IMG/VR virus record: IMGVR_UViG_3300022861_000082
Coordinates: 1 to 42,938 of that record
Length of the DNA: 42,938 nucleotides
DNA from: a virus
Reading direction: 5' to 3' (one strand)
Made by a program: the position numbers and the translations under genes. How positions within the stretch are numbered: the first letter of the stretch is position 1; every line of letters begins with the position of its first letter. The notes beneath the pieces were generated by a model. The model did not search any database and was not told the DNA's origin. It saw nothing but the letters and a program-made list of their open reading frames with translations. Shown piece after piece: positions 6,632-38,977 of the stretch.

Positions 6632-6916
6632 ATGGCCAGCATGGTTAAACGTGCACTGCTGGCTTTATTGCTACTACTTGTTCCATTTGTCAATGCTTCC
6701 ACGCAACCGCGCAGCCATGCGGCGAAGCTCGCCTTTCAGCGTGAGCATCCATGTCCCGCGAACGGTGCGCGGCGTGGGCGGTGCCCGGGCTATCAGATCG
6801 ACCACAAGATACCGCTGCACTGCGATGGCCCGGACTCGCCGGATAACATGCAGTGGCTGACCATCGCAGACCATGCGGCGAAGACCAAACGCGAGCACAA
6901 CTGCACTCTGAAGTGA
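6632..6916 (+). CDS. Exported HNH endonuclease-like protein, antisense to the tail operon
   Basis: A protein of 94 residues. Residues 1-23 form a signal peptide (MVKRALLALLLLLVPFVNA from the second Met, cleavage after NA). The mature part has HPCPANGARRGRCPGYQIDH, then KIPLHCDGPDSPDNMQWLT and HAAKTKREHNC. The DH, the central N and the terminal H are the HNH metal and catalytic residues, flanked by Cys pairs. Signal-peptide HNH proteins of this size occur in many prophages. The start may be the ATG at 6632 or 6641; neither has a good ribosome site. It runs opposite to all neighbouring tail genes. Role is unknown: possibly degradation of DNA in the periplasm, for example of competing phage. Confidence 0.78.
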   Translation: MASMVKRALLALLLLLVPFVNASTQPRSHAAKLAFQREHPCPANGARRGRCPGYQIDHKIPLHCDGPDSPDNMQWLTIADHAAKTKREHNCTLK

Positions 6917-6957
6917 TCTGATTGACCAACCCTGCCCGGGTGGGGGAAACTATCCAA

Positions 6958-7137
6958 ATGCATATCGAGCTAGATTTCGACTCCGCAGCGTTCGACGTTA
7001 AGTGCAAGAAATGCAAAAACGTCTACGTGGAGGATGAAGTGATCATCGACGACTCAGGAAAGCTCCTATGCCCTCAGTGCAACGAACCAACCGAGTGGAA
7101 GCCTACCTTCGAAATCAAGCGCCCGAAGATTCAGTAG
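6958..7137 (+). CDS. Small zinc-ribbon protein
   Basis: A protein of 59 residues starting at ATG 6958, preceded by GGGGGA at 6942-6947; a TTG at 6922 would add 12 residues but lacks a ribosome site. It contains VKCKKCKNVY and LLCPQCNEP, a two-knuckle zinc ribbon, followed by WKPTFEIKRPKIQ. It lies 41 bases after the HNH gene on the same strand, and its stop directly abuts the stop of the convergent plug gene at 7138. Probably cotranscribed with the HNH gene. Function unknown. Confidence 0.65.
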   Translation: MHIELDFDSAAFDVKCKKCKNVYVEDEVIIDDSGKLLCPQCNEPTEWKPTFEIKRPKIQ

Positions 7138-37068: not shown

Positions 37069-37096
37069 AGTATCGCTTTTTCTTTACCTCTGTCAA
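37069..37096 (-). promoter_or_regulatory. Left early promoter (PL-like)
   Basis: On the minus strand TTGACA (37096-37091), 16 bases, then GATACT (37074-37069). It drives the left operon from 37026 downward. Two GTAAAG operator copies flank the -35 (37082-37087 and 37104-37109), spaced 22 bp apart, so repressor bound there would block polymerase. Confidence 0.75.
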
Positions 37097-37152
37097 GCGT
37101 TTTCTTTACTTCGTGTACAGGAAAATATATCCCTTAGGAGTTCTGGGTAAAG
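37082..37152. promoter_or_regulatory. Left operator cluster (three GTAAAG-type sites)
   Basis: GTAAAGAAAA-like decamers occur at 37082-37087 and 37104-37109 (minus orientation) and 37147-37152 (plus orientation). A GTACAGG motif at 37115-37121 is shared with the right operator region. The same GTAAAG core reappears at 38559 and 38590, so these are probable repressor/Cro sites. Confidence 0.6.
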
Positions 37153-37175
37153 AAAAACCGCCCGGGGAGGGCGGT
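37151..37175 (-). terminator. Rho-independent terminator of the repressor operon
   Basis: A 7-bp stem ACCGCCC/GGGCGGT (37157-37163 with 37169-37175), loop of 5, followed by TTTTTCTTT on the minus strand. It lies 31 bases after the membrane-protein stop, so repressor and membrane gene form one transcript that stops before the left operon. Confidence 0.88.
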
Positions 37176-37206: not shown

Positions 37207-37887
37207 CTATCTCAGAATGTAGAGCACTATTCCTATAAATACCGCAATGATGGCCAATGCCACCCCGCACTCGATCAGACGAAATTTCAGAGGAGAGATT
37301 CCAAGCTTCTTGGCCTCGTATGCAGTCTTTTCTTTCGAACCAGCGGGTGCGTGGCAACCGCACGAACACTCCTGGGAACCGCAGGCATAGTGTCTGCCTT
37401 CGAGACATGCTGTGCGCAAGTCGGCGGATGGAACATATTCCGTTTTGCGAGGTGTGAACTTACCAGACGACTGGGGCCGGGAGGAATTTTGGCTTACGGA
37501 CACCGGCTGCGACATCGCTAGCGCTTGAAGGTTGGTGAATGTCTTCGCATCACATTTCCCCAAGAACCGCCGTCCATCGGAAAGCAGACAAGTGAAGACT
37601 ATCTCCGTCTTCCTCCCACCAGAGAGCACGCCAGCAGCAGCCCCTACGACGCCAAAGGCTACGCCTCCGACCAGACCCCATCCGATGGAGCCGGACATCT
37701 TTTTCAGGTTCTGCTCAGTCGCAATCTCTAGTGACGCTATCTCTCCACCTCCCACATGCTCCGTCCTGAATGACGCCCCGTTTATCGGCATCTGGAGCCC
37801 CTGATTCTTCCCGTACAGTGGTCCCCAAAATAACTGCCCAACGCGGTCCTGCCCAAAATCTCCTGCAATAACCTTGAAGGTGGACAC
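37207..37887 (-). CDS. Repressor-linked membrane protein (lysogenic cargo candidate)
   Basis: GTG 37887 lies 12 bases after the repressor stop; 226 residues. The N-terminal domain (FKVIAGDFGQDRVGQLFWGP) precedes a glycine-zipper hydrophobic stretch at 66-90 (GSIGWGLVGGVAFGVVGAAA), then TEIVFTCLLSDGRRFLGKCD, a Ser-rich linker, a Cys-rich segment (CLEGRHYACGSQECSCGCHA, 161-180) and a C-terminal membrane anchor at 204-225 (CGVALAIIAVFIGIVLYIL). It shares the repressor transcript, so it should be expressed in the lysogen, like lambda rex. Superinfection exclusion or defence is a reasonable guess, not shown. Confidence 0.72.
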   Translation of the reverse strand: MSTFKVIAGDFGQDRVGQLFWGPLYGKNQGLQMPINGASFRTEHVGGGEIASLEIATEQNLKKMSGSIGWGLVGGVAFGVVGAAAGVLSGGRKTEIVFTCLLSDGRRFLGKCDAKTFTNLQALAMSQPVSVSQNSSRPQSSGKFTPRKTEYVPSADLRTACLEGRHYACGSQECSCGCHAPAGSKEKTAYEAKKLGISPLKFRLIECGVALAIIAVFIGIVLYILR

Positions 37888-37899
37888 TTCTAGTCGGTC

Positions 37900-38547
37900 T
37901 CACTTTCTCCTGAATTTGCGGTGCTCCATCATTGTACCGACGATCCGAATGTGGGTCACATCTGACCGCATCGTGGGATAGTCGGGATTCAAAGGCACAA
38001 GCTCAAACACGTTCTGGCTGGCTTCATTCAGGCCACGCTCCCGGTATCTCTTGAACGTTGCTTCTCCGCTTCCATTCACCGCTACCACAAAGTCGCCAGG
38101 GCGAGGAGGTGCAACTTCCGGGTCTTCTGCAATGATCATGTCGCCTTCTCGAAATTCCGGAAGCATGGAATCGCCGCGAATAAACATCGCAAATGCGGAC
38201 GGGGATAGGTCTAGGCTCGATAGCACATATTCTCTGATGTCAGATTCCGAGAGCCCAGAGTCAACCCCCGTCCATGCCCCCGCCTGAACGTGATCCAGGA
38301 CTGGCACTTTTCGCGTACCGATGGAAGCGGGACTCACATTCTCGGCTCCGAAGTGGAGTTCCGCCCCGGTCAACTTGCTCATCTTGGAGAGTTGCTCGAA
38401 CGACGGTTCATGCCTGCCGTTTTCCCATGCGGAGATATTCGCTTTCGTCACTCCTAACAGTTCCCCGAGGCGTTCCTGCGTAAACCCGCCTGTTTCTCTT
38501 GCTGCACGGACCCAGCTTGCCACGTTCATGACGGCGCTTAGTTTCAT
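37900..38547 (-). CDS. CI/LexA-type repressor with autocleavage (S24) domain
   Basis: ATG 38547 after GAGGGA gives 215 residues. Residues 8-66 are an HTH_3 domain (FTQERLGELLGVTKANISAW, ENGRHEP). Cleavage site VQAG (Ala89-Gly90), Ser127 in RGDSM, and Lys166 in GEATFKRY form the S24 self-cleavage centre, so RecA-stimulated induction is expected. It represses both early operons. Adjacent and divergent to the Cro-like gene. Confidence 0.93.
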   Translation of the reverse strand: MKLSAVMNVASWVRAARETGGFTQERLGELLGVTKANISAWENGRHEPSFEQLSKMSKLTGAELHFGAENVSPASIGTRKVPVLDHVQAGAWTGVDSGLSESDIREYVLSSLDLSPSAFAMFIRGDSMLPEFREGDMIIAEDPEVAPPRPGDFVVAVNGSGEATFKRYRERGLNEASQNVFELVPLNPDYPTMRSDVTHIRIVGTMMEHRKFRRK

Positions 38548-38558
38548 AAAGTCCCTCA

Positions 38559-38633
38559 GTAAAGAAAAGTATTTACCCAACGGCGAAAAGTAAAGATAGA
38601 TTTTCCTTGACATAGTACAGGTATTTCTATACT
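38559..38633 (+). promoter_or_regulatory. Right early promoter and operators
   Basis: TTGACA (38607-38612), 15 bases, then TATACT (38628-38633). Transcription would start at about 38640, two bases before the Cro-like ATG. GTAAAG sites lie at 38559-38564 and 38590-38595, and an inverted TTTAC at 38572-38576 pairs with the first. GTACAGG at 38615-38621 lies between -35 and -10 and recurs in the left operator region. A weaker divergent repressor promoter probably overlaps these sites; I could not define it. Confidence 0.7.
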
Positions 38634-38641
38634 TTCGTCTC

Positions 38642-38977
38642 ATGAATGCACTAGAGAAAGCTGCTGGAATCATAGGATCACAGGCCAAGCTTGCCGGATT
38701 TCTGGGTGTGAGTAAGGCTGCCGTGAATCAATGGAAACTCCCCGGGCGAAAAGTCCCACTCAAGCACTGCTTACCAATTGAGCAGATCACAAAAGGAAAA
38801 GTCACCTGTGAGGAACTTCGCCCAGATATTAACTGGACGACCATGAGAGCAAGCGTGCCCCCAGCCGCCGACTCTAGACTTCCCCATACCACCCACACAC
38901 GGGCCACCAATGGAAACGCTATCGGAACCCCGCTAAGGAGGCGCGCCACAGACAAGCAGGACAAGGAGACGGTGTGA
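38642..38977 (+). CDS. Cro/YdaS-like DNA-binding protein
   Basis: A protein of 111 residues. MNALEKAAGIIGSQAKLAGF, LGVSKAAVNQWKLPGRKVPL, KHCLPIEQITKGKVTCEELR match the Cro/YdaS pattern, a HTH that recognises operators. It lacks any Shine-Dalgarno and lies practically at the promoter start, so its message is leaderless. The C-terminal 45 residues (RASVPPAADSRLPHTTHTRA) are unstructured and basic. It should compete with the repressor for operators. Confidence 0.85.
   Translation: MNALEKAAGIIGSQAKLAGFLGVSKAAVNQWKLPGRKVPLKHCLPIEQITKGKVTCEELRPDINWTTMRASVPPAADSRLPHTTHTRATNGNAIGTPLRRRATDKQDKETV

Follow-up and report, generated by a model that had tools for sequence, protein, structure and literature searches.

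The question raised by this locus is what is encoded by the single gene that lies between the repressor and the left operators of a lambda-like immunity region, and what it may do for the prophage. The window analysed is the complete 42,938 nt of IMG/VR virus record IMGVR_UViG_3300022861_000082, and the gene occupies 37207-37887 on the minus strand. The frame matches these coordinates exactly, starts with GTG and predicts a 226 aa protein. Directly upstream is a gene for a CI-type repressor (37900-38547, minus strand, coding from 38547 to 37900), presumed to be the first of the message, with Pfam matches to HTH_3 (E 6e-13) and Peptidase_S24 (E 6e-18). Beyond it a Cro-like regulator (38642-38977, plus strand; Pfam match YdaS_toxin / P22_Cro) is transcribed divergently. 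The GTG follows the repressor stop after a gap of 12 nt, exactly as in the original prediction. There is no strong Shine-Dalgarno sequence close by, and the repressor TGA is in frame with the GTG (TGA GAC CGA CTA GAA GTG, 37885-37902, minus strand), so that translational coupling of the two genes is likely. Readthrough of this single stop would yield a fusion of the repressor and the membrane protein.

The gene is followed, 31 nt past its stop, by a predicted intrinsic terminator (37175-37157, minus strand) with a 7 bp stem that includes 6 G-C pairs and is followed by TTTTTCTTT. A terminator had been predicted here; this one is the only terminator-like hairpin on the strand of the gene, and the stretch 3′ of the gene has a fold energy of -19.7 kcal/mol (z -2.7 against shuffles). 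A consensus terminator scan overall found fewer terminators than were found in shuffled sequence, and the case for this one is therefore based on position and fold, not on count. Two palindromes resembling GTAAA-N8-TTTAC (37070-37087 and 37092-37109) form a putative left operator region at 37070-37109, and a second pair (38559-38576, which is perfect, and 38615-38632) forms the right one at 38559-38632. Exactly four copies of the word GTAAAGAAAA are present in the window, three at 37078-37156 and one at 38559. The T-run past the terminator (37147-37156) is itself an exact copy, and terminator and operator may thus overlap. A PL-like promoter, TTGACA-16-GATACT (37069-37096, minus strand), overlaps the left operators; a promoter scan of the region gave nothing above chance.

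The resulting order is OL, the 37207-37887 gene, repressor, OR and Cro-like gene, and because palindromic operators flank the repressor and the gene on both sides, the gene occupies the position of rexAB in lambda, where the annotated order is OL-rexB-rexA-cI-OR-cro. As with rexA and rexB, the gene lies between cI and OL in the same orientation, and transcription linked to the repressor would be a further likeness. This anatomy (12 nt gap, terminator, operators on both sides) lends good support to the earlier claim that the gene is on the repressor message, co-transcription being deduced from the layout. However, rex comprises two genes where the window has one, and neither RexA nor RexB shows meaningful sequence similarity to the 226 aa protein. 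RexB is a polytopic membrane protein, whereas a single C-terminal transmembrane (TM) helix is predicted here.

The features named in the original prediction, a glycine zipper (G66 to G91), a Cys-rich region (residues 161-179) and a C-terminal hydrophobic segment (residues 207-225), are all present. Residues 1-125 (37513-37887) form a domain that matches PHROG 12025 (residues 1-133, E 1.4e-9) and PHROG 20920 (residues 46-119, E 1.9e-6), both clusters annotated as of unknown function. An AlphaFold model built with 46 relatives predicts seven strands and a capping C-terminal helix, with high confidence except in the zipper, and a family member folded separately gave the same elements with moderate confidence. 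The best fold matches in the PDB are mostly PH domains (Rtt106, GRK2, USP37) but are weak, none reaching E 0.001, and the core is therefore described only as PH-like. The zipper (residues 66-91, 37615-37692) is a hairpin placed between strands 5 and 6, modelled (58-86) at low confidence, and G66, G79, G82, G86, G90 and G91 are invariant across 46 family sequences. As its halves are short and the flanking strands have to be adjacent, it more likely dips into the membrane than crosses it as a spanning pair. The Cys/His knuckle, C-x4-H-x2-C-x4-C-x-C-x-CH (37351-37407), is a possible zinc site. At the C-terminus a TM helix is predicted at residues 204-225 (37213-37278), within a long helix (199-225) modelled with confidence. 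The one strongly hydrophobic segment there (207-225, Kyte-Doolittle 2.9) is preceded by K/R, which predicts a tail anchor that would leave the PH-like domain, like the N-terminus, in the cytosol.

A match to a known metabolic or structural protein was looked for, and Pfam, NCBIfam, PADLOC and PDB sequences gave nothing above cut-off or of note for the 226 aa protein; matches such as Bacteriocin IIc (Pfam E 0.48) and CEND1 were dismissed as chance. The layout had been described as belonging to no named family, and this stands for the protein as a whole and for Pfam, NCBIfam and PADLOC, but not for the core, which falls in existing PHROG clusters. Relatives of the full-length protein were found neither by pattern search of viral and genome contigs nor by tblastn against phages and plasmids. 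The family came to light only through a phrog_12025 hit in a related phage, followed by alignment-based scans. Three members used as tblastn queries against phages also gave no match, probably because glycine-rich stretches were masked. The scans identified 55 viral loci encoding about 50 distinct proteins, mostly of 115-130 aa, and those tested match the PHROG 12025 and 20920 profiles too. They resemble the N-terminal 125-130 residues of the window protein, to which the knuckle and TM helix are added. No member of known function was found among them, and none of the papers searched names either PHROG.

The closest relative is a 166 aa protein in a sister phage (L226; the same gene is in L297), which is 49% identical over 185 aa, Cys module included, and has the same domain, a nearly identical knuckle and no TM helix. 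On the retention of the N-terminal domain in about 50 phage proteins and of the Cys module in this one, 37207-37887 is judged a real gene. In the sister phage the homologue lies in the tail module, where the window has no copy, and the tail proteins of the two phages are approximately 63-77% identical; a single phage lineage thus has the gene next to the repressor in one phage and among the tail genes in another. Among the family members found, the knuckle is confined to the window copy and L226/L297, and the TM helix to the window copy. Viral contigs often contain the pattern itself, with at least 112 in-frame cases; most of these are in tiny ORFs (30-70 aa; L177-L296) that possibly encode an undescribed mini zinc protein. 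Another member (L146:4989-5507) ends in a zinc ribbon, which makes this the second time that a Cys module was independently added to the PH-like domain. In the window, two genes at 6632-7137 (plus strand) run against the tail operon; one predicts an HNH-like protein that looks secreted, the other a zinc-ribbon protein. The zinc-ribbon gene is retained in the sister phage, and the family gene adjoins it there.

Two genomic slots recur. Ten loci, the window included, carry the gene downstream of a repressor, which has an S24 domain in the window, L096, L116, the near-identical L124 and L125, L131 and L140, and an HTH domain in L123, L139 and L148. At least 19 members directly adjoin a tape-measure gene, at least 15 on the same strand (L126 was counted here via an overlapping ORF) and four on the other (L114, L117, L138, L110), and ten of these tape-measure genes were confirmed by PHROGs. 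Two members follow an integrase, four are in other tail positions and the remainder are elsewhere, approximately a quarter of the family being in neither the repressor nor the tape-measure slot. On the family tree the context labels require at least 21 changes, with many forks open, indicating that the contexts are not one inherited arrangement. The window copy is on a long branch, which leaves its exact sister unsure. An integrase or S24 match was found on 22 of the 30 long member contigs, one of these matches being weak; roughly one in four contigs tested, some possibly fragments, has neither domain. In L120 and L128 a BRCT-domain protein is encoded directly upstream of the family gene, and an apparent homologue is in the post-repressor slot of L039.

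A terminator of its own and independence from the late genes are expected of a moron. A terminator within 120 bp was found for 18 of the 31 tail or other copies, compared with 3.4% of stretches drawn at random from these loci, and four copies are antisense; the window gene has the repressor operon and its terminator. The copies with their own terminator are, in their layout, self-contained units. A promoter consensus was not enriched upstream of the tail or other copies (3/31 against 6%). The case is stronger for the family as a whole than for the one gene.

The tape-measure slot recalls HK97 gp15, a superinfection exclusion moron encoding a small predicted inner-membrane protein that blocks DNA injection by long-tailed phages. 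In the annotated HK97 layout gp15 is between a tail assembly gene and the tape-measure gene and has its own terminator. Many family members share this slot and terminator layout, though in the window the gene lies elsewhere. At 62 aa gp15 is too short for a PH-like domain, and it gave no alignment with the 226 aa protein at E ≤ 100. Some homologues of SNIPE have a PH domain matched to 2BCJ-A (PMC13190303), which is also a top fold match of the 226 aa protein. SNIPE contains DUF4041 and a GIY-YIG nuclease, neither of which was detected in the 226 aa protein by the Pfam scan. A link to SNIPE was rejected, as none of 11 sampled DUF4041 proteins carries the family domain. The gene resembles those of the rex and gp15 slots, yet by sequence comparison it is not RexA, RexB, gp15 or SNIPE.

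The explanation preferred here, at about an even chance, is that 37207-37887 is a lysogenic-conversion (moron) gene in the rex slot, which would be made with the repressor in the prophage and act in superinfection exclusion at the inner membrane. The PH-like domain would be on the cytoplasmic face of the inner membrane with the zipper hairpin dipping into the bilayer, and the tail anchor and knuckle of the window member would provide attachment and probably a protein- or metal-binding site. Interference with an incoming phage would take place at the inner membrane as the tape-measure protein opens the route for DNA or, less likely, at tail assembly. Support for this reading comes from position, as both slots are known to house exclusion genes, from independence of late transcription and from a temperate background. 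Adjacency to the tape-measure gene counts against it to the extent that this may merely be a tolerated insertion site, and PADLOC models did not match the protein. The earlier suggestion of a possible lysogenic defence gene has gained strong circumstantial support (repressor and gp15 slots, terminators, antisense copies, temperate phages), and superinfection exclusion is plausible, with the balance about level.

A benefit to the host apart from phage exclusion, with the protein acting as a membrane-attached adaptor or as a stress or metal sensor, is rather unlikely but has some points in its favour. The core domain is found in bacterial genomes without obvious phage context, in a Pseudomonas record beside a siderophore receptor and in a 449 aa protein with a SHOCT domain. 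The post-repressor slot of related phages also carries mixed cargo. In L003-L056 and L298 it appears exchangeable, holding lipoproteins, TM proteins and second repressors, as well as an AAA-like ATPase (L048) and a TerB/BRCT-like protein (L039). Membrane proteins are modestly enriched there (6/27 against 8.5%, p 0.02), a count that depends on rough gene calls and includes the window itself as one of the six. Chromosomal members are, however, rare (2 of 369 and 2 of 274 bacterial genomes), and many phage copies cluster in the two exclusion-associated slots.

The tape-measure neighbours bear on two further alternatives. Tab and Tai are prophage-encoded blockers of tail assembly. Tab acts on the tape-measure protein, its gene is antisense to the late operon and has a promoter of its own, and its homologues lie between terminase genes (PMC10884400). 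The four members antisense beside a tape-measure gene recall this arrangement and would fit a protein that binds the tape-measure protein of other phages in the late phase and blocks tail assembly. That is improbable here, since membrane association, as predicted, would suit a block at DNA entry more than one at tail assembly in the cytosol, and no candidate counter-gene was identified. An accessory tail or injection protein for the phage's own use would explain why so many members directly adjoin the tape-measure gene, but a late structural gene would not be expected on the opposite strand, with a terminator of its own or in a repressor or integrase operon, which makes this reading still more doubtful. 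Least probable is an insertion that is neutral or in decay and plays no part in lysogeny; the long branch of the window copy could be read in this way, but the 226 aa frame is intact, the family glycines are kept and the whole Cys/His module is conserved in the 49% identical sister-phage copy elsewhere in the genome.

Exclusion at the inner membrane thus remains the preferred reading, and the 226 aa protein makes a good candidate for an exclusion protein not yet described. More tentatively, the family may be an unnamed and widespread exclusion family of temperate phages, in which a PH-like platform with a zipper moves between two slots and blocks DNA entry, extended in this phage by a zinc knuckle and a tail anchor. 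If true, a role could be assigned to two PHROG clusters annotated as of unknown function, and a single membrane-based exclusion module would be common to dozens of temperate phages. Because the domain is present in both the rex and gp15 slots, a direct test would be possible with the domain from either location against long-tailed phages. The protein would also provide a small and tractable system for how inner-membrane exclusion proteins stop DNA entry guided by the tape-measure protein.
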